NCBI GenBank assembly: GCA_947088865.1
Contig: CAMUHY010000001.1
Coordinates: forward strand, 248,001 to 312,000
Length of the DNA stretch: 64,000 bases
Source: an uncultured Eubacterium sp.
Lineage (GTDB): Bacteria; Bacillota; Clostridia; Lachnospirales; Lachnospiraceae
Direction of reading: 5' to 3'
Shown here: one piece after another, positions 36,285-50,438 of the stretch
Layout of the letters: every line of letters starts with the position of its first letter
Numbering within the stretch: position 1 is the stretch's first letter
Made by a program: the position numbers and the translations under genes
The notes under the pieces: generated by a model
The model's input: only the letters and a program-made list of their open reading frames with translations
Databases searched by the model: none
What the model was told of the DNA's origin: nothing

Positions 36285-38270
36285 TTATTCCATTCCCAAA
36301 ATCCCCTTCACAATACATTCCTCATACCATTCTTTTGGCGCGCCACCGCTATGATACGCGCTGTCCAATAATTGATATATCTGTGGATAACGAATTTCCA
36401 GCCGCAATATATCCTTCAACTCAGATGTTTGCAATGGTAGTATTTTCATTCCTGTAATAAATGCCGTCCCTGAATGATTATAATATTCCATATTTTTCCT
36501 TGCTCTAAAATCCGAAATCACATTGTTATTAAGATTGGTTGTAATAAATACACAATAAGCCTCATTATCTGGATTTGTTAAGCAATATTCACCCAGATGC
36601 CTTGAGACAGGTTCCATTTCCATTCTGCGCTGATTGCTGCCATCGGCAAGCGTTGCCTCGATAAGCAATGTGTGTGCTGGATAATCTTGCTGTCTATCAT
36701 ACTTCCACACAATGTCCGCCTCCCCGCCGCCAGCATGTGTCTTAGGAAGCAAATCCGCTTCCAGTGAAAGATTCATATACTCTAAAACCTTTCCTTTGCG
36801 CCCACTGATAACATACCATGCAATTCCTAACACATATTCAAATATCGTAGGTATATCTGCATTATCAGTCACTAAAACTCTAATATTATTATCTTCTCTA
36901 TTTTCAAAAAAGGTAAACAAACTTATCAGTATATCCGTTGAAAATTTTTCATCAATCAATTTATTAAACCGTACATAACGCTCGTCCTGAATAACCTTTT
37001 TTGCTCCTGTCTTATCGGTAACGGCAATGCCAAGCAGCTGACTTAATTTTTTATAAAGTACATCTTCCTTTATCTCAAAACAAGCTGCGATTGCTTCAAG
37101 TGGGACATCTTCATTCAGTAAAGGGCTTTCTAAAAAAGCAAATTCAATCAATTTATCTGCAATATCTTCTATATAACATCGCGGCAGCATATCGAGCTGT
37201 ACTTTATTATCTTCAAAGAGAACCATATCGGTTATTTTAAAATATCTTCTATTTAAGTCAAAATAATCAGACAATGTTGCTTTTGCCTTAAATAGATGCA
37301 TTACCTTAAAAAACTCTTTATTAAATGTTTCCATATCTTCTGCCATTAATATTGGAACATTCTGCAATACCTTGCGTCCTTTTTTGACAATAACACTTCT
37401 TACAAGACTGCTAAAAAAATATTTTCGCCAGCTTCCGCCCACTTTACTGTTTGTCAATTTTTTTGTTGCTTCATATAATTCCAGAGCAGCCTCTTCTTTA
37501 TAAAATACAATCTTTAACAAAATTAAATATAGCTGATAATATGGTTTATCATATTTTGAGCTTTTGCGGTTGATGCCTATATCACAAATTAACTCTTCAG
37601 ACAAAGGCTGTGTCTGCAATAAATGCAGCGCCTCCTTATAATTATCCATATCGAACAATACCGATATAATAATTTCCTCATAATTGGTGCTACCTTTACG
37701 CGAATCAAGAATACATGCAATAATTTTATCGGTCGTTGTCCTATCAACACACAATGGCAGCAAGTAGGTAAATTCATCATAAGTCAAATAGTTCAACTTA
37801 CTTACAACATACAAAAATACCAAAAATGGTCTTACCTTTTTGCCATCTACATCATTGCATGTCTTTAATAACTGTTTAAAATAGACAAAACTATCACTTG
37901 GTATTTCTAATAAATTATCCGATTTATAATTGTGCGAAGCCGCGATTTGAAGCAGTTTATTGCCCGCTGGTGTAATCCTTCTCTCATCGTCCATCAGCCC
38001 TATATCACGAAGCCCTGATGTTTTTTCTCTGGCATCTTTATCAGGTCTTTTTGCATCGCCTGCCACAAAATTTTTTGATTTTAAAAAATCATAATACTGT
38101 TTTTGAAACGCATTATTTCCTGTCCATACTTGATTGCAGTTTTGGGACAGCTCTCTAAATTCTTTCATCAAAGCAAGCTGCCTTTCAATATTCATATTAA
38201 AATTATCAGTTCGATAACTTGTTGTCCCAACAGACCAACAATAACTTTTAAAATGGATATTATGCGCCAT
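36285..38270 (-). CDS. AlwI-family type IIS restriction endonuclease
   Basis: 661 residues from the ATG at 38270 (GAGGGA just upstream). It resembles the RE_AlwI family, which includes AlwI, PleI/MlyI and the nicking relatives of BstNBI. The N-terminus has HIHFKSYCWSVGTTSYRTDN-like order (NIHFKSYCWSVGTTSYRTDN). The PD-(D/E)XK-like core shows GGGEADIVWKYD followed by HTLLIEATLADGSNQRRME, giving D..E-x-T spacing near residues 535-560. It directly follows the two-domain methyltransferase gene (56-bp gap between the chosen start and the methyltransferase stop). The cut site probably lies outside an asymmetric sequence such as GGATC, but specificity cannot be read from the protein. Confidence 0.82.
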   Translation of the reverse strand: MAHNIHFKSYCWSVGTTSYRTDNFNMNIERQLALMKEFRELSQNCNQVWTGNNAFQKQYYDFLKSKNFVAGDAKRPDKDAREKTSGLRDIGLMDDERRITPAGNKLLQIAASHNYKSDNLLEIPSDSFVYFKQLLKTCNDVDGKKVRPFLVFLYVVSKLNYLTYDEFTYLLPLCVDRTTTDKIIACILDSRKGSTNYEEIIISVLFDMDNYKEALHLLQTQPLSEELICDIGINRKSSKYDKPYYQLYLILLKIVFYKEEAALELYEATKKLTNSKVGGSWRKYFFSSLVRSVIVKKGRKVLQNVPILMAEDMETFNKEFFKVMHLFKAKATLSDYFDLNRRYFKITDMVLFEDNKVQLDMLPRCYIEDIADKLIEFAFLESPLLNEDVPLEAIAACFEIKEDVLYKKLSQLLGIAVTDKTGAKKVIQDERYVRFNKLIDEKFSTDILISLFTFFENREDNNIRVLVTDNADIPTIFEYVLGIAWYVISGRKGKVLEYMNLSLEADLLPKTHAGGGEADIVWKYDRQQDYPAHTLLIEATLADGSNQRRMEMEPVSRHLGEYCLTNPDNEAYCVFITTNLNNNVISDFRARKNMEYYNHSGTAFITGMKILPLQTSELKDILRLEIRYPQIYQLLDSAYHSGGAPKEWYEECIVKGILGME

Positions 38271-38326
38271 CGTTCCCTCATTTCTGCACCGCTTTTGCAC
38301 CAAAAACTAAATTTTCATTATATTTT

Positions 38327-40474
38327 TTATAGATTTTCGACTTTGTAATTTACAATCAACACTTCTTTTGTAATTTCATTACGCCCTTTTGTATGATAAT
38401 TGGAATTGGAATAATTATAATTTAATGGAATTACTTTAAATTGTTTATGTTTTAAAATCCACTTGCTTAATATCTCGTTCTTTTTCCCCTTGCTTTCCAG
38501 CACGTTAGAAAGTGCAAATCGGATTCCTTTTTTATCCAATTGTTCCAAAAATGCAAGTAAATCTTCTTCATCTTTTTTTGTCCATCCATTCTGCTCATTA
38601 TAACTGGCACATGTAATCAAATACGGTGGGTCTGCATAAAAAAAGCTTTTTTCTGAATAGCTATCCACATCAATCTGCCGAAAATCTTGATTTGTAAATT
38701 GATAGTCACTGCTTTTGATTCTATCAATAAAAGCACCTAACTTTTCCTGCATTTTACTGTTAAAATCACGTTTTCCCACAGGAAGATTAAATTCTCCTTT
38801 TTGATTAAATCGAAGTTGATTATTAAAAGAGTACACAATCAATAAATACAGCATTAAATAATATTCGCTATCCATCTTATTTTTTGCATTAAAATCATCA
38901 CGCAATTTATTATATCCTGCTTTATTGTAAGAACCCACGCCCGACGAACTATCACATCCATAATATTCATATCCAAACTGGCTGACTAAAGATAATTGAT
39001 AATGATTGATAGTATCAAACATCCACTTTAAAATTTCTTTTTTTGACAACTTCCGAAACGTATTAAGCAATCCAATCAGATGTGTATTAGAATCGTTAAA
39101 TAACACTTTATTGCAGTCAACATTAATTCCTACATTGCATCCTCCGCAAAATAAATCAACAACCTTATCTGCATCTTTTGGAAAATAAGGCAATATCTGG
39201 GGCAGCAATTTATATTTTCCGCCTGTATAATTTAATGCCGATGGAATAATGGATTTTTTATCTGTATTACAAGTACATAAAAATAAGCGTTCTTGATTTT
39301 CTTGTATATCAGATTTTCCTGTGGAAAACGTCTTATAGTTCTCTGAAAATACTTGAACAGTTCCTTTTTTGCTTAAGATTCTTATAATATCCTCATCGCT
39401 TATCTTCGCATTGGAGCGTTCATTTCCCTTTTCTGCCATATTGTTATAAGACAATAAGATATACTTTGCATGAATAGAATCAATCAACTGTTCAAATACT
39501 TTTACAGCTTTCTGTGTACAATATGCACTCTTTAGAGCCGTTCTATCCATTTTCTTTGCCACGCCAAACACTTCTGGCTTTTCCCATCTTGCCACATTTT
39601 CTAATAAATGATACGCATCGCAATACTGCCTTGAATTATAAGGCGGGTCAATATATACTAAATCAGCCTCAATAGCAGAGGCAATATCATTAATGTCCAT
39701 ATTATAACACACATTATTTTCATTTAAATTCGTATCTGGCACTGGCACATACAGTTCTAAATGTTTTTCAAACGTGGTTCCCTGTCTGTAAGCATCATAA
39801 TGTCCGCATGTATTTGCAATCTTATCCATCGCATAAAGCAAAGAAGTAATCAGCAATGCGCGTTCTCTTTGATTAATTCTGCCTTTGTTGTATTGGTTTT
39901 CTATATCTTGTCTAATGTAACCAATCTTTCTGCAATCCTCCAACGAAAAATAAGTATCTGCAAAATGTTCGCTCATATAATTATCTTCAAGGACTTTCTT
40001 TTTATTGTAATCAACAATCATATCAATTATTTTTTCTTCTGAATAACGCTCTGGACTAAACCATGCCAAATGGCAAATATAATTGCTGTACATAATATCA
40101 TTTGTAATCAGCTTTTTATCTGTAAAAGCAGACGACACTGCCCCTGTACCGGCAAATATATCTGCTACTGTTGAAATTCCTGTACATTCTTTGTCAACAA
40201 TTCTTGTTATAAAAGGCAGCAATTTATATTTGTTCCCCAGATATCGCCTGTTATTAATCTTTGTGGTTTTATATTGTGGCTTTTGTGTACAAACTTTATT
40301 GTTTATATGATTTTTTCTTATATAATGATATAATTTTTCATATACAGCATCATTCCAAATGGGATGACCTTGTTCATTTTCTTGAATTTCCACCACGTTA
40401 TTCTTTTTTAAATAATAAAGATATGACCTTGATATGTCTAATTTTTTTGCCATTTCAGTTGCCGAATAATGCAT
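38327..40474 (-). CDS. Two-domain DNA adenine methyltransferase with N-terminal HTH (type IIS M protein)
   Basis: 715 residues from the ATG at 40474, which has GGAG eight bases upstream; an in-frame GTG at 40522 would be almost leaderless given the promoter at 40533-40560. Residues 1-60 look like a MerR-type helix-turn-helix (SATEMAKKLDISRSYLYYLK). Then come two Dam-like methyltransferase units: motif I VADIFAGTGAVS with DPPYNSRQY (about 276), and motif I VVDLFCGGCNVG with ADPPYLITCASY (about 615). As in M.FokI-type enzymes, two units are needed to methylate both strands of an asymmetric site. The HTH may autoregulate the system. It precedes the AlwI-like endonuclease gene. Confidence 0.88.
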   Translation of the reverse strand: MHYSATEMAKKLDISRSYLYYLKKNNVVEIQENEQGHPIWNDAVYEKLYHYIRKNHINNKVCTQKPQYKTTKINNRRYLGNKYKLLPFITRIVDKECTGISTVADIFAGTGAVSSAFTDKKLITNDIMYSNYICHLAWFSPERYSEEKIIDMIVDYNKKKVLEDNYMSEHFADTYFSLEDCRKIGYIRQDIENQYNKGRINQRERALLITSLLYAMDKIANTCGHYDAYRQGTTFEKHLELYVPVPDTNLNENNVCYNMDINDIASAIEADLVYIDPPYNSRQYCDAYHLLENVARWEKPEVFGVAKKMDRTALKSAYCTQKAVKVFEQLIDSIHAKYILLSYNNMAEKGNERSNAKISDEDIIRILSKKGTVQVFSENYKTFSTGKSDIQENQERLFLCTCNTDKKSIIPSALNYTGGKYKLLPQILPYFPKDADKVVDLFCGGCNVGINVDCNKVLFNDSNTHLIGLLNTFRKLSKKEILKWMFDTINHYQLSLVSQFGYEYYGCDSSSGVGSYNKAGYNKLRDDFNAKNKMDSEYYLMLYLLIVYSFNNQLRFNQKGEFNLPVGKRDFNSKMQEKLGAFIDRIKSSDYQFTNQDFRQIDVDSYSEKSFFYADPPYLITCASYNEQNGWTKKDEEDLLAFLEQLDKKGIRFALSNVLESKGKKNEILSKWILKHKQFKVIPLNYNYSNSNYHTKGRNEITKEVLIVNYKVENL

Positions 40475-40532
40475 CGCTTTTATCTCCATTTTATGCAACA
40501 TATTTTCCAATTTATTGGACACTTTTCATATA

Positions 40533-41567: not shown

Positions 41568-44500
41568 TTAATTTAATTTATTGATACTTCCAAGATTATA
41601 TACATTGGTAAAACCAAACTGTGCTGCCATCTGTATTGCCTTTGCTGACCTTACGCCAGATGCACATCCAAACACTAAAACAGTATTTGTATCATATGCC
41701 GCAAGACCTTCTTCTAATCTGTCCATTGGAATATTGACAGCATCTTCTATTGGTTGTTCTGCAAATTCTGTCTCGCTTCTGACATCTATAAGCACTGCTC
41801 CTCCTGACATCAAAACTCTTGCTTCGTCAACCTCAATCGAATCTCCGCCAATATCACTCATATTGACTTCAATATCCGTTTGACCATCACCTGCATACAT
41901 CACGCCATCAACAATGCTCATTTCTTTAATATCAATATCGCTGACTTTTTTCAGCTTATAACATTTTTCGCAATCGGTAAATACAATGACAAGTCCATTG
42001 TCACATCCAGCATAAAGTCTATCTTTATATACTGCAAGCATATTGATTGTGTATGTATCATCATAGTTGTAAGGAACATCTGCTTCATAGAAATAATTGG
42101 TATTAAACTGTACTTTTGAACCACTTACTGTCTGCATCCATACTTTGGTTTCGCCCGATGTATCATGCTTTGTCAATACAACATCACGATTTCCCCATGT
42201 AACAAATTGTACAGGACGGTCAATTGCCTCCTCTTGTGGTGTCACACTAAGATATGATGTAGACATTGTCTGAGCTGAATTGACATAATATTCAACAATA
42301 ACGGCAAACAATTGCTTATTGCTGCTACCACCATAAATATATACTGGTTTCGTTGTATCTGTAACTTCAAGACTAACTGAAGCGATTGAACCTGTACCTG
42401 GCTGTGTAGCACTGTTTTCATCACTCTGATATATAGTCATGCTGCGTTCAGGCTCACCACCTAAGAACACTGCTGTCACTTTACATGGTGCTTCTGGTGT
42501 AAAGTATAAACTACGTCTGCTCTGTCCGCCAGAACCAGCCTGCCATGCCTTTGTAAAGCTATAATCATACGTTTTGCCATTTACATCTGTATATGTATAG
42601 TTTCCTTTCTTATTTGCCACTGTCCAATCCCCATAACCGCTCAAACCATTTATCGTACTCACGTATGCAACCCTATCTGTTCCGCCTGTCAATGGTGTGT
42701 AATCAAAATCTTTGCTGTCAAGTGAATAAACGACAATATTACCATCTTCTGGAATAATATAAACTTTCTCAAATGCCTCGGACAATGAATTATTATTCGC
42801 ATCACGAACCGTCAACCTTACTGTTTCACCACCCGTGGCACCTGTTTCTATCTCAAATTCTCCTGTTCCCTTTACATCTGTACTTACTGTATTTTTAACA
42901 CTTCCATCTGCATTAAGGACCTCTGCAACAAGCTTTACAGTCTCTGCGAGTGTACTTCCACGATATTTCAATGCGGCTTTGATTTTACCATTTGTTCTAT
43001 TGAGTGCATTTTCAATAACATATGGTACATCATCATTGTTCTCAATATAGTTCAATCTGAAATAGTCAAGATTTACCCCGTTGGTTTGAACATAAATTGT
43101 AGCACATCCATATTCATCAAGTAATCCATTTATTTGAGCATTTTTCAAGCTTTCTGTATTCAATGTAAGCGTTACATCTGCCCATGTACTCCATGCACCT
43201 GTTGCTGAGACAGAAGCTGTGGCGATTAAATTGCTTGATGTAGTATTCTTATCTAGGCTGATATTAATTACATTCGCATTTTTACCTGCATATCTTGCTA
43301 CAATACTATCAAGATTTGATAGCTTAACCGATTTATATTCCATCCATGCGTTGCCTGTGCTTCCTGCATCGTGACCGCCGCTGGAACCGTTTTGAGCATC
43401 GGACAAATTCGCTCCATTTCCAGCATCTGCATATTCTGCCTCAATCTGCATATTAACATGTACCATAATTTTTCCGCAGACCATATTTTCAATATCTGAA
43501 GCCGTAATCTGGATAATACCATTTCCATATACAATCAGATTGCCATCTTTATCAATATCTGCGACCTTACGAACCGAATTGTCAAACTTGCGGACATTCC
43601 ATGTCAATTTTGAATTATCAATAGGATTTCCGTCTTTATCAAGTACTTTAAGTGCTATTCCCTTATATGGATTTATATTTGTAATTGTACCTGTTGCTCC
43701 ATTATACATAGGAATACCGCCATCACGGTAATCAATCATGCCTGCTTTGATATGTTCTGGATTGACTGATTCCACACTGTAACCAACTGTAAGCTTATCC
43801 ATCTCAATAGAATTTAAGTCATTGATTGCCTTTGCAAGCACAGTATTTAATTCTGTTTTTATCATAACAGCATCTAAGCTGGCTAATCCCTGCTGATAAA
43901 TTGCTGTAAGCTCTGCATAATTTTTATCCGAATAAGCAGCTTTTGGAAGTTTGTTATAACTTTCTGTCAATTCTGCTTTTGCTGCCTCAACCTCTTCTGG
44001 AGATGGTTTAATCTCAATCTGATTAACTACAGGATATGAAGTTGAAACTGTTTTATCATTTATTGTTACAGAAATATGAATCGTTGTAACGCCTTCTTTT
44101 GCTCCTGATGTAACAATACCATTTTCATCTACCGATGCAACATCTGTATTATCACTTGTATAAACAACCGTTGTACTACTGCTGTCTAAATCAGCCCATG
44201 CTTCATCAGACATGATTGCTGATACGTTAGAACTGATTGTTGTACCAGATGTAAGTCCTGTGCCATCTTCATAGACAAGTCCTTTTACTAAAATACCGCT
44301 TGGTATTGCCTTAACAGTCTTTAATATCGATTCAAGTGTACCTGTCACTTCAAATTGCTTTGACAATGCAGTATCATTTGCATTTTTTGCTATATATGCT
44401 GTATATGTACCTGTTGTGACAATATCTTTTTGTGCTGCTTCGTCAAATAAATACAACTCTTTAATATCCAAACTAAATGAAACGGTCTTTGTCTCATTTG

Positions 44501-47484
44501 GCTGAAGTTCAACCTTTTCAAAACCTTTAAGCTGTTTTGTAGGAGTTGTTCCAACACCTGAATTTGGAGCCGCAACATAGAGCTGAATAACCTCTTTACC
44601 TGCCACAGAACCTGTATTTTTCACATCAACTGTAAAATTTAGCGTTCCATTTGCATCCACGCTTGTCTTATCCATTGTCATATTGGAATACTCAAAATTG
44701 GTATAGCTTAAGCCATAACCAAATGGATAAACTGGCGTTTTACTATAATACTGATATGTATGTCCTGGATTATCTCCATCTGCTTGAATATTATAATTGG
44801 TATACACACCACTAATATCTTCAATCGTCTTTGTTGTTCCGGCAAGCTCCATCTTCTTTACATCATCATTTTTATACCATGTTGTAGTAAGTTTACCTGA
44901 TGGATTCACTTCACCTGTCAATACCTTGCCAAGTGCTGTACCCTGTGTTTGTCCATTATATGATGTCCACAAAATCGCTTTACAGTTATCCATAAAGGGC
45001 TCAACATTAATCTGTCCAACGGTCTGCATAACAACAATTGTCTTATCAGGATATGCTTTTGTAATTTCATTAACATGAGACTGTGATTCAGGAAGGTCTA
45101 TTGTAGCTCTGTCCTTTGACTCTGATGAGTCTGCATCGCCAAATCCAGCCTGCTTTGGCACGGTACCAGCATAGGCAATAATAACATCGGCTGCATCAAG
45201 CTGTGCTTGATATGCTGCTACTGAAAATGGTTCAACAGCAACACTTGCTGAAATATACATATCCGCTGTGCCGTTATATCCTCCATCTTCGCCTGTATAT
45301 TCACCTGTACATGCCACATATGTATCTGCATTTGCTGTTGTCTGTGAAGAAACAGAAGCAACGGTAGGTCCGCCATTGCCATAAGCAATATTAATCGAAC
45401 CACCCTTTCTGCTGCCTGTAGCCATCTCTACTTGTACACTTGCTACACTATCAAAATTAACATTGGATATGACCGCCTTTGCTATTGGCGTAACATCTAT
45501 AAATGTGCCATTGGAAACAGTCATTCCGGATACGCCTGTTGCCTTTGACAAATCAACAGCTCTTGTTGAACCATTTTTTAATACAAGCGTGATACTCTTC
45601 ACATTAAACAAAGATTCGTCATCCGACACAACACCAAGATGATTGACTTCAACATTGGCATTGGCATTTGTCAATTCTTTTCTGATACCTTGTATAGGGT
45701 TTACTGTCTTTGTCGGTGTACTTGAGTAATCTCCTAATGCAAGTGTATTTGCCATATTGCCGACAACAGCAACCTTTGTCACATCTTTTTTAAGAGGAAG
45801 CGTATTGTCATCATTTTTAAGAAGTACCCATGATTCTTCTGCAACTTCTTCTGCCACAGCAACATTTTCATCGGTCTCAATTACACTTGAAGTAATATTT
45901 CTATAAGTACAATCAAGATCAAATTCGCCTGTTCTAAATCTTTGTAAGAACAGCTCATATACAACACGTCCTAATTCTAATTCACTCAAGTAACCATTCT
46001 CAACAGCAGCAACACCATGTAATCCGGATTTGTTATTACCGCTCTGATAACATTCAAGATTTAATCCAGACTTGTAGGCTTCTGCAATATACTGTTCATC
46101 AGGAAGTGAATCACTGCCTAATATCCCTGTCTTAAAAGCATTGCTTGCTAACAAATAAGCACCAGCACCACAGTCACTTGTCACATATCCGCTAAAACCC
46201 CAATTGCGTCGAAGTAAATCCTGAAGCAGATAAGAGTTGGAAAGAGATGGTATAAAATTGTAAATATATTCACCATTTCTGGTGATAGTTGTCGCATTGT
46301 ATGAGGTCATTACGGATGTAGGATTAGCCTGCTCTGTAATGTTTTTAAATACTTTTGTATAGTAATTTCTAAAGTTAAATTCAGTCATTAACGAAGAGCC
46401 GTTGCTGCGGTTCTTTTCATTATTATTGGCTGCAAAATGCTTTAATGTTGAAATGGTTTTCAAATATGTTTCATCATTTCCCTGCATACCTTTGACAAAC
46501 TCAGAACCAAGCTGTCCTGTAAGATATGGGTCTTCACCCATTGTCTCTTCATTTCTTCCCCAACGAGGGTCACGTGCCATATTGACTGTTGGACTCCAAT
46601 ATGAAAGATCATACTTACTATTCTTTGCTCGTGCCTCTGTTGAAGTAATATCTGCAAGTTTATATATAAGACTTCTATTCCATGTATTTGACATAGCAAG
46701 CGGTACAGGGAAGCTTGTAGCTTGTCCCTGTCTTGCAACGCCATGGAGCGCCTCTCTCCAATAATTGTAAGCAGATACGCCCAATCTTTCAATCGCTGCT
46801 GCCCTATAGCCAAGCTGTGATACTTTCTCCTCAAGAGTCATTCTCGATACAAGGTCAGCCGCACGTTCTTCAAATGAGAGTGATGTGTCAAGATATGACA
46901 ATTCTTTTCCATCTTCACCGATTTTGCTATTGTATATCTTTACATAAACATAATTTCCACAATATGCTGATTTTTCGCCGCTTATGTTGAGTGTGACATT
47001 TCCACTCGCCTCTGTTGTTATAAGATTTGCTGTATTGATTTGATATTTACTCCACGAACCAGTATTGATATTATTAAATGTTGCCACCGTTGTGCTGCCA
47101 ACCTTAATCGTGACAGCAACATCTGTCTTACATCCTGCATACAAATCAATTCTATCATAGCCGGAATTTTGAAGCTCCACACTTTGTAAAGTCAAAACAG
47201 CTGCGCCGTCTTTATTCGTTTTTAAATTATCTGGTCTTTTATAACCCCCCATTAACCGTATCCTCAATAAGTGTGCCGCCGCCGCTTTGGGTGATACTAT
47301 CCTCACCGAAAGAGAAGGTTATTGATTTATCAGAATTTGTAGTAACTATGCCATAATCTCCTGCTGCTAAAACGAACAATTGTGGTGGAAATACCATACA
47401 AGACAATGCCATTAAAACAGACAAAATCACTGCAAGAGATTTTTTTAATTTCATAGAAATCTTCATTTCTGCACTGCTTTTCAC
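41568..47484 (-). CDS. Secreted GH3 glycosidase with CBM, FIVAR-like and rhodanese domains; frame broken at a G6 tract
   Basis: A signal-peptide frame (47484 down to the tract; KKSLAVILSVLMALSCMVFP) runs into a G6 tract at 47245-47250. One G fewer would join it to a frame of about 1890 residues. Domains in the large frame: CBM6-like (20-130), GH3 N-domain (137-460) with WSPTVNMARDPRWGRNEETMG and the nucleophile Asp378 in GYVTSDCGA, GH3 C-domain with an inserted beta-sandwich, Fn3-like (about 880-960), Big-like, FIVAR-like helices, a second CBM6-like domain, a propeller-like region, and a C-terminal rhodanese domain (1827-1912) with Cys in FGCASGVRSA. The likely role is plant or mucin glycan hydrolysis. 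GGAGG precedes the GTG start. It is 17 bp downstream of the surface-protein gene. Confidence 0.82.
47245..47250 (-). repeat. G6 tract that breaks the GH3 gene
   Basis: CCCCCC on +, GGGGGG on the coding strand. The sequence ...ACG GTT AAT GGG GGG TTA TAA stops at once; with five G it reads VNGGYKRPDN and stays open to 41568. Confidence 0.85.
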
Positions 47485-47501
47485 GCTAAGCACCTCCTTT
47501 T

Positions 47502-49917
47502 TTATTTCTTTTCATTTCTTTTTAATTTTAATCCAGTTACTACAACAACTATTCCTGATATAAAGATAAATGCAAATAACCAGCTAATTGGCGCATCATC
47601 ACCAGTTCCTGGTGTGTCTGTGGCTGCATTATTATCTTTCGTTGTTGGTTGTTGTGTTGATTCTTCCACTGTTGGTTTTTCTTCTGTCATATCTTTATAA
47701 ATAATAGCATACGTTGAAAACATATCGGATTCAAATGTCAGCGTGCTATTTGCCGCATTATACTCTGCATCCAATATAGCAGCCTTGCCATTATGTACAC
47801 AAACCATTTGATATATTCTTGCCTTTGCTGCATCAACTTTAAGTGTTTCTGGCAATGTTACTGTAATTTTAATCTTACCATTCGTTTCCTTAACAGGTGT
47901 TTTTTCTAAATTTCCAACCTGCTTAAATACAGAAATATCTACATACTGACCCACCATCTTATCACTCAGTACATCACCAATTGCCTTTTTATCCTCATCA
48001 TTTACAGTACTGCTTAAATCCGTAACCTCTAGTGAAATCTTAATATCATTACCTGCTGTTATCAATTGTTGTTCATCTGCTGTCCATGATATTTTATCAA
48101 CAAGTTCTTCCTTTGTATTTGATATTGTCATAGCTGGTGCTTTCTCACCCACAACAATATCTACATCAATCTTACCCTCTGTTGTTTCCTCTTCAAAAAC
48201 TGCTTTTACAACAACATCATTTGATGGCATCACAAAACAATTGTCATTGATAGTAACTTCACCAGAAATAACCTGCCATTCTTTGAATTTATATCCCTTA
48301 TTTGGCACGGCTGTAAGTGTAACGGTTGTACCTGCCGCCGCACTATTGATATCAGCACGAGCGATACCATTACCATCATTTTCAACTTGAACATTGTATG
48401 TTGGCACTGGTTCTTTATCTGCTGTTGCAGCAAACTGATATGTTACAGTTAATGTTTTGTCATCATTGAACTTAACACTTGTTGCAGCATTGCCATTTAC
48501 AAATGCTGTACTTGATGCAGTAAATACATAACCTGCCGAAGGTGTCAATGTTATACTTGCTGTATATGCTGTATTATAGTCTGCTGTCTCATCATTTGGT
48601 GTCCATGCAACTACTGATACTGTGCCGATTCCTACTGTGTCAGAAACCGCCGAAGTATCTAGTGCTGTTCCTGCCACTGGCGTATCAATGCCTGTTATTT
48701 CAACATTCTTAATTTCTTTTTTCTCTGTTTCGCCATTTTTTATAGCCTTCACTGCATAAGTTATATTATCTTGTGTTGTTTCAATCCAGATTTCACAGTC
48801 ATTCATGTCTGGCTCAATCGCTAAATCTAAGGCACGTTGAATGGCACTTGCAGACACTGTTTTTTCACTGCTTACAGATTCAGCATAATACCAATCATTT
48901 GTTTTGTCATTTCCCTGAACAATAAAAGTTACAGTTGTATTTGCCGCAGGCTTAACCGTTGCTTCACTTGCTGTATAACTTGCAGCACTTCCACTTAACT
49001 TTGTACTTCCATCTGCTCTCATTATAAATGCATCCTCTGCCTTAATTGTTTCTGAACCAGCAGCCGATGCTGGAACTGCCGATGCAAAAAGAACAGACGA
49101 TAAATTCAAGCTAAAAGCTGGTAAAACATCATGTTTTATAATAACATCCCATTGACCACTCACAACAAAACCTATCTGTGCCATACAGACATCTTTTTGA
49201 CCATTGCTGCGTGTTGAACGAAGCCAAAAACTTAAATTATTGTTAATATATGGTTTATACGTATCAATTTTTAATCCTTTGCCCAAATCTTGTGAAGAAT
49301 TGGAACCAACTGTAATATAGTTATCATTAGCAACACCATATGCAAGATACAGTTTATCTGTTGTGCTGTATGTACTATTATTCTTTCTATCATATGTAAA
49401 TACAGTCGTTTCTTGCATCAAATCCTGTTCTGCTGCTGAAAAATACTTGCTGTCTTTTTCCAAGCCTTGCAATATATCACGGACATTACTAGAACCATAG
49501 TGATTTGGAAAAACAGCCTGAGTTTTTACCCCCCTCATACGTTCCTTCTATTTTTTCATTATAAATAGTACTTGCTATGGTTTGGAACTTTTCTTTTGCA
49601 AGCGGTGTCTCTGCCAGCAGTACAAGTCCTTTATTTGTTTGTGTATCAGGGTCTGCTCCTGCAATATACCAATACTGTGTATTACCAGAACCATCTTGTC
49701 CAAATGCCACCTTTTTTGCTGTCCCACTATACGATGCAGACAGATCAAAATTTGTGTTATCCTTCAATTGCTCTGCTGTGGCATAGGCTGTCACATTTAA
49801 CGTGTTATCATCTTTCGCTTTGGCTTTCATTGAGCCGCTTAACACACTAGAAAATAGACCTATGGCAATACATGCCGTTAAGGTATAAACTATGCCTTTT
49901 TTAGGTTTCATTCTCAT
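47502..49917 (-). CDS. Wall-anchor-like secreted surface protein; frame broken at a G6 tract
   Basis: Start ATG 49917 (AGGAGG six bases upstream). Signal peptide GIVYTLTACIAIGLFSSVLS, then about 130 residues to the G6 tract at 49529-49534, where the frame shifts and soon stops; a tract of five G would join it to the frame that continues to 47502. The rest has a DUF6273-like region (NNLSFWLRSTRSNGQKDV), Ig-like repeats, a bacterial-repeat unit (VTLTAVPNKGYKFKEWQVIS), and an anchor-like C-terminus: a TDTPGTGDDAPISW motif, a hydrophobic helix and the tail KLKRNEKK. This resembles a divergent LPXTG/NPKTG sorting signal. The ligand is unknown. It is first in an operon with the GH3 gene. Confidence 0.78.
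49529..49534 (-). repeat. G6 tract that breaks the surface-protein gene
   Basis: Coding strand TAT GAG GGG GGT AAA AAC leads to a stop about 13 codons later. With five G it reads YEGVKTQAVFPNHYGSSNV and the frame stays open for over 670 codons. Confidence 0.85.
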
Positions 49918-50438
49918 ATAAATCCTCCTATCCATTTTTTAAATAGCCATGAATACATCTTAATACCGTAAGAACTTCTATGATTTTATATATTTTTTTC
50001 AAAATGCTAAATAATCATTACAAATTCAAAATATTTTATTCATGTCTAATTTTTTATAAAATTATTATAAAATATCAATTTAAACTTTTGCAATGTCTTT
50101 TTATAAAACTACTTTTATTTCTCCTTTTTCGACATACCCCCCTATTTTTTATGCAATATGTACATTTATCGCCTTTACTTTTATAAAAAAATTCTACATA
50201 TTTTACATTAACATTTGACAAATAAATATTTACATTCTGCTTCATGCTACTTGCTCGAACCCTCATAGCTGCTATCACAGCTTTTCAGTGGGAGCTTATA
50301 CTCCCACTGAAACAAGCAAGTTCCCCCACTTATGTCTTTGCAACATTGAAGTGGGGGACTTCCTTGATGAGGTTAAATTATATTAAGAATCAAATTTCAA
50401 CATACAATAAAAATAGGAGACTCTGCTAAGTAAAAATT
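49918..50438. other. Gene-free region upstream of the surface-protein operon
   Basis: 521 bp with no credible gene. AT-rich from 49936 to 50130, a third G6 tract (C6 on +) at 50137-50142, then structured repeat copy 3. It presumably contains the operon promoter, but I could not pick a convincing one. Confidence 0.6.
50243..50378 (+). repeat. Structured dispersed repeat, copy 3
   Basis: Lacks the first GGATATTCGC-AATCC segment and begins at CATGCTACTTGCTC. It keeps the GTGGGAGC..TCCCAC hairpin and the CCCCCACTT/AAGTGGGGG hairpin and ends GATGAGGTTAAAT, 61 bp from the stop codon of the lipoprotein gene. Confidence 0.85.

Follow-up and report, generated by a model that had tools for sequence, protein, structure and literature searches.

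This locus raises the question of why two consecutive genes for large secreted proteins are each divided in two at a run of six guanines (G6). The genes lie in the window, which is the 64,000-nucleotide (nt) stretch analysed here (contig CAMUHY010000001.1 of assembly GCA_947088865.1, from an uncultured Eubacterium sp.), and encode a surface-type protein (SP) and a GH3 glycosidase. The explanation that fits best, and to which an even chance is given, is that SP and GH3 form a decaying operon with two recent loss-of-function slips and are not a device. An earlier note on this DNA had offered a coupled ON/OFF switch or a repeated base-calling error as the alternatives. Its observation is confirmed, while its interpretation is partly supported.

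Structure of the SP-GH3 locus

The two genes consist of the following features, listed with the evidence for each.

49489..49935, minus strand: 5' half of the SP gene, a signal-peptide open reading frame (ORF) of 148 amino acids (aa); in 8 of 10 loci the SP relatives have a homologous N-terminal part
49529..49534, minus strand: G6 tract in SP, the frame switch point; sequence and codon-bias frame switch
47502..49538, minus strand: 3' half of the SP gene, 678 codons, with an InlB B-repeat-like domain and a C-terminal hydrophobic segment; Pfam PF18998 and relatives
47239..47484, minus strand: 5' half of the GH3 gene, a signal-peptide ORF of 81 aa; ORF matching the N-termini of 6 of 6 orthologues
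47245..47250, minus strand: G6 tract in GH3, the frame switch point; sequence and codon-bias frame switch
41568..47250, minus strand: 3' half of the GH3 gene, with GH3 N and C domains, Fn3-like and CBM6 domains and a C-terminal rhodanese domain; Pfam and six orthologous loci

Each tract divides one ancestral gene into two frames. As the earlier note described, the signal-peptide frame runs into GGGGGG, shifts and stops, about 40 nt past the tract in SP and one codon past it in the GH3 ORF that starts at 47484. Both 3' frames are uninterrupted, that of GH3 over about 1,890 codons to 41568. The coordinates give an ancestral full length of about 800-810 residues for SP and about 1,970 for the secreted enzyme, in line with the lengths of about 800 and 1970 proposed before, and intact homologues occur elsewhere. 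The codon bias changes frame at both tracts and is retained in both 3' halves, where additional stops are absent. Each of these halves is a long frame without interruption and finds its homologue in the 3' part of intact genes, so the split of the frames goes beyond chance. The two tracts occupy different codon phases. Runs of at least six G/C are found only three times in the 64-kb window, as the two gene tracts and a non-coding one at 50137-50142.

The end of SP and the start codon of GH3 are separated by 17 nt and the GH3 start has a AGGAGGTG ribosome site, so that SP and GH3 are likely to form one operon, as was suggested before.

Homologues across the break sites

Six GH3 orthologues were found by a scan of genome contigs, all in Monoglobus-type records of which one is titled Oscillospiraceae, with best segments that are 49-66% identical, too distant to gauge recent constraint. 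In all six, the 5' and 3' halves from the window match in one frame and there is no G6 at the site. Three more matching proteins, from another family of this order (f11; genomes G623, G653 and G685), have open frames of 1,859-2,012 aa, as judged by frame length. Relatives of SP in the same family, 12 copies in 10 loci, are uninterrupted across the site; in 8 of the 10 loci a single frame holds the matches to both halves, and the longest G run nearby is five. A frame break at the tract site is thus found in 0 of 12 SP copies and 0 of 6 GH3 orthologues. A conserved contingency tract was rejected, since the tract is missing from the orthologues and relatives examined.

The SP-GH3 operon was not found in the other 21 genomes of the genus, where only matches of at most 254 bp occur, which fits an accessory operon. 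Neither half of SP matched the six Monoglobus-type GH3 loci, and the genes just upstream of GH3 in these loci, read by eye, differ from SP; conserved pairing of the two genes was rejected on these grounds. Viral contigs were searched twice by pattern for the two sites, with every tract length from four G upward allowed; there was no match, and no same-species sequence was found in them.

G tracts and reading frames in the rest of the genome

The assembly is a 48-contig draft of 3.29 Mb with 84 tracts of at least six G, of which 82 were classed; one tract on contig C41 and one removed by the duplicate/edge filter were left out. A mechanical rule gave 37 gene-internal G6 tracts. Two of these (L070 and L098) lie at or before the start codon and were set aside, leaving 35, of which 33 sit in frames that run through and the remaining two are those in SP and GH3. 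Among the 595 pairs that the 35 tracts can form, two are within 3 kb of each other, and by this post hoc statistic random neighbours are expected at about 0.3%. Two random hits would therefore rarely be neighbours.

Reading frames were also screened by codon bias in a sample of 464 kb, made up of the window and 400 kb of the same genome. The filtered screen comprised 47 gene junctions, 40 with a start and a Shine-Dalgarno (SD) motif nearby and seven flagged. The flagged junctions are SP, four that by eye look like ordinary overlapping starts and two that are unclear (L143 and L150). No other case as clear as SP and GH3 was found in this filtered screen, a filter that itself let GH3 pass. With one of the two known cases flagged, its sensitivity is modest. 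Both genes are among the matches listed in the unfiltered codon-bias output of 103 pairs.

A proposed recently decayed operon

Both genes share features of frameshift pseudogenes, in that their homologues are open across the site and the shift site is unconserved. The reading as true pseudogenes, which the earlier note had tied to further decay downstream, is the best-fitting one even though such decay is not seen. We infer the following order of events. The organism would have ceased to maintain the operon that encodes these two secreted proteins, and SP would have been broken when its short G run slipped by one base. Translation of SP would then have stopped early, and the long untranslated 3' part may have lowered the expression of GH3 by polarity. 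With reduced expression GH3 would have been under little selection, and a slip at its own G run would have followed. The breaks appear recent because the 3' frames are intact, have kept their codon bias and contain no further stop.

The ORFs of at least 200 codons in the 464-kb sample contain 59 G5 tracts, which extrapolates to about 400 such sites in the genome. That two hits fell in one operon despite this number suggests locally relaxed selection and not a process acting on the whole genome.

Among the closest known counterparts are the classes 'pseudogene' and 'singleton' of the GeneTack survey (PMC3711429; this and the other papers cited are quoted from excerpts). They share with SP-GH3 the intact homologues, the unconserved shift site and the break in a homopolymer. 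The difference is that SP and GH3 are neighbours in one operon and are both broken, while other decay is absent.

Several points weigh against a decayed operon. The tract lengths come from one assembled genome sequence, so that fixation of the breaks is presumed, and the lack of further decay downstream is also expected under a reversible switch or an error. According to the excerpts of PMC3711429, singleton frameshifts with homologue support are expected to be sequencing errors, not true mutations. The neighbour-pair statistic was devised after the fact, and the polarity step belongs to the proposed mechanism and not to the observations. Two homologues are themselves damaged elsewhere than at the tract: a distant partial GH3 match in f11, at a contig start (G665), carries an internal TAA, and one SP relative (L129) has a stop about 40 codons beyond the site.

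Possible phase variation

The foremost rival is reversible phase variation, in which slipped-strand mispairing would switch SP and GH3 and the assembly would have caught both in the OFF state. This is doubtful. As a switch would have it, each tract falls early in a gene for a secreted protein, the two genes share one operon, and the 3' halves are undamaged. The layout resembles the translational poly-G/C slippage of Neisseria lgtG and the Campylobacter phasome, where genes for surface or secreted proteins have a G tract in their 5' part and a change of one unit moves the frame. Those tracts are, however, 7-11 long, while the SP and GH3 homologues have no tract and the tracts of SP-GH3 are known at a single length from one assembled genome. 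The remark in the earlier note that varying tracts are usually longer than six agrees with the lower bound of 7 for phase-variable G/C tracts in the surveys by PhasomeIt (PMC6321876) and GeneTack (PMC3711429), whereas both tracts here are exactly six.

Length does not in itself rule out switching, since reversible tracts as short as A6/A7 in Listeria inlA (PMC2831843) and G7 in Mycobacterium glpK (PMC11898584) exist according to the excerpts of these papers. Like SP-GH3, these are tracts of six or seven bases with inactivation near the 5' end, but they are backed by many isolates or by reversion assays and SP-GH3 by one genome. GeneTack further uses a cluster of at least five homologues broken at the repeat as a criterion (PMC3711429), and none of the homologues examined for either gene is broken there. 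The 33 other gene-internal G6 tracts retain their frame, the pair is not conserved and, if the two tracts switched independently, both OFF would be less likely than one OFF. A dedicated, coupled ON/OFF switch is accordingly a weak proposal.

The genome does have G tracts of greater length, some inside genes and some at promoter-like sites, which makes slippage loci of other kinds plausible there. The longer gene-internal runs are G7-G9. Two of them, a G8 (L049, C3:81049-81056) and a G9 (L052, C3:89664-89672), sit towards the 5' ends of open genes that are separated by about 9 kb; the gene with the G9 encodes a hexapeptide-repeat transferase. Both genes are in frame as assembled and are candidate contingency genes. 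An intergenic short repeat (AAGTGGGGGACTTCC / AAGTGGGGGAACTTGC), present in the window at about 50320-50360, has many copies (for example L028, L045, L053, L074, L077 and L080); the copy in the window has G5 where other copies have G6 to G9, so that the repeat preserves a natural record of slippage in G runs. A G8 tract on the small contig C42 (L112) coincides with a frame break; the protein concerned has no Pfam match. It was set aside because the contig is foreign-looking and, we presume, Bacteroidales-like.

Possible sequencing error

That both genes are truly open and the breaks are errors of assembly or sequencing is unlikely. Both breaks are at homopolymers, the usual site of such errors, no other lesion is found in either gene, the assembly is a draft, and the expectation for singletons cited above from PMC3711429 points the same way. 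Against this, of the 35 gene-internal G6 tracts that were counted, 33 leave the frame intact, no flagged junction besides SP is as clear among the 47 in the codon-bias screen, and the frames of the sample are otherwise clean; its ORFs of at least 200 codons contain 355 runs of A7/T7 or longer. It would take a coincidence for two errors to fall in adjoining genes and for none as clear to occur elsewhere. The repeated base-calling error put forward earlier fits poorly with the running frames and the closeness of the breaks, and random homopolymer error is an unlikely cause of both.

Possible recoding or internal initiation

Production of the 3' halves by +1 frameshifting, transcriptional slippage or initiation at an ATG just upstream of the tract is very improbable. 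Products started at the ATG would lack signal peptides, and without these both the GH3 enzyme and the surface protein would be mislocated; the tracts are in different codon phases, and the 33 G6 tracts in running frames speak against efficient shifting at GGGGGG as such. Both genes do have a 3'-frame ATG with an SD-like motif at most 6 nt from the tract. The combination is present at 0.7% of gene positions; among 36 gene-internal tracts, taken in any frame, 3 show it, both broken ones included. This was observed post hoc, and an ATG beside a G run is common, being present at 11 of the 36 tracts. A programmed frameshift with a stimulatory structure was rejected, as the shift site is unconserved and the RNA downstream of the two tracts gave z-scores against shuffles of 0.89 and 0.04, nothing notable, in a search that did not extend to pseudoknots.

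Poly-G tracts in promoter spacers

Poly-G tracts between the -35 and -10 boxes of putative promoters are a better candidate for slippage switching than the SP-GH3 pair. In this genome the strict pattern TTGACA-N4-12-G7-N0-6-TANNNT had no match and only two looser ones were found, both upstream of secreted-protein genes: TTGACG, G9 and TAAAAT with a spacer of 18 (L184, C12:15715-15744), and TTGACA, G6 and TATAAT with a spacer of 19 (L180, C3:288762-288792). A loose pattern applied to the 22 genomes of the genus matched 12 times, at 10 places in 7 of them, whereas its reversed form matched 3 times. Three sister genomes (loci among L175-L178) share TTGACA-N10-G10-TARAAT ahead of one orthologous secreted protein, as seen by direct comparison of the promoter strings (L175-L177).

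The pattern was also counted, overlapping matches included, in 397 genomes of 334 genera of the family, which is probably Lachnospiraceae. The strict pattern had 93 matches in 54 of the 397 genomes and 51 of the 334 genera, compared with 4 matches for the reversed pattern and 14 in 11 genomes for the C7 version. The tracts in these spacers are G7-G11 and often precede secreted-protein genes. In a subset of 33 loci that were examined (for example L187-L215), the spacer is 16-21 in 27 and the tract is 0-1 nt from the -10 box in 27. At 26 of the loci an ORF begins no more than 150 nt away, and 16 of these 26 are signal-peptide-like by a crude rule, which gave 10 of 41 at promoter-like sites without a G run, a control sampled from one genome, that analysed here.

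The excerpts of PMC3639595 describe the porA gene of Neisseria meningitidis as having a phase-variable promoter with poly-G between -35 and -10, and the family tracts share this layout. Unlike porA, the family promoters are candidate switches recognized by pattern, and they are distinct from the coding tracts of SP-GH3. A few searches of a partial literature collection gave no report of promoter-spacer poly-G in this family. The balance tips slightly towards the proposal that poly-G promoter spacers tune secreted-protein genes by slippage in this family, as the main device, in the manner of porA. The wider claim, which adds that SP-GH3 is a young, revertible product of such slippage on the coding side and acts as a coupled glycan-use switch, is decidedly improbable.

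Protein content, promoter and neighbourhood

The N and C domains of GH3 score above the Pfam cut-off (PF00933, 117 bits; PF01915, 160 bits) and the best solved relative of the protein is an exo-beta-xylosidase (6q7i). No equivalog cut-off was reached in NCBIfam. The rhodanese domain at the C-terminal end, at 41568-41835 in the window, is unusual in a secreted GH3; the orthologue match extends to residue 1911 in 4 of the 6 loci (L113, L115, L116 and L118).

Two features are found upstream of SP.

50064..50093, minus strand: predicted sigma-70-type operon promoter TTGCAA-N18-TATAAT; read by eye
50137..50142, minus strand: the third G6 tract, non-coding and further upstream than the predicted promoter; sequence

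The predicted promoter still looks good. A region of 109 bp around it (50052-50160) is 79% identical to C15:332-441 (L161), which lies upstream of a different secreted-protein gene in the same genome, and this duplication suggests co-regulation of the two genes. The third G6 is missing from the duplicated region and was rejected as a conserved regulatory element. Near the broken operon, at 36285-40522, a gene for an AlwI-type restriction enzyme adjoins one for a D12-class adenine methyltransferase with two matched stretches.

Biological meaning

Should the breaks be both real and fixed, a large secreted glycosidase and its partner would have gone from this genome unnoticed, and an annotation that spans the breaks would be wrong. 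If switching were true, a gut-type Clostridia genome would have a coupled ON/OFF operon for glycan use at unusually short tracts. The poly-G promoter spacers, found in 51 of the 334 genera, matter more than SP-GH3, and promoter phase variation in commensals can be checked in existing reads.

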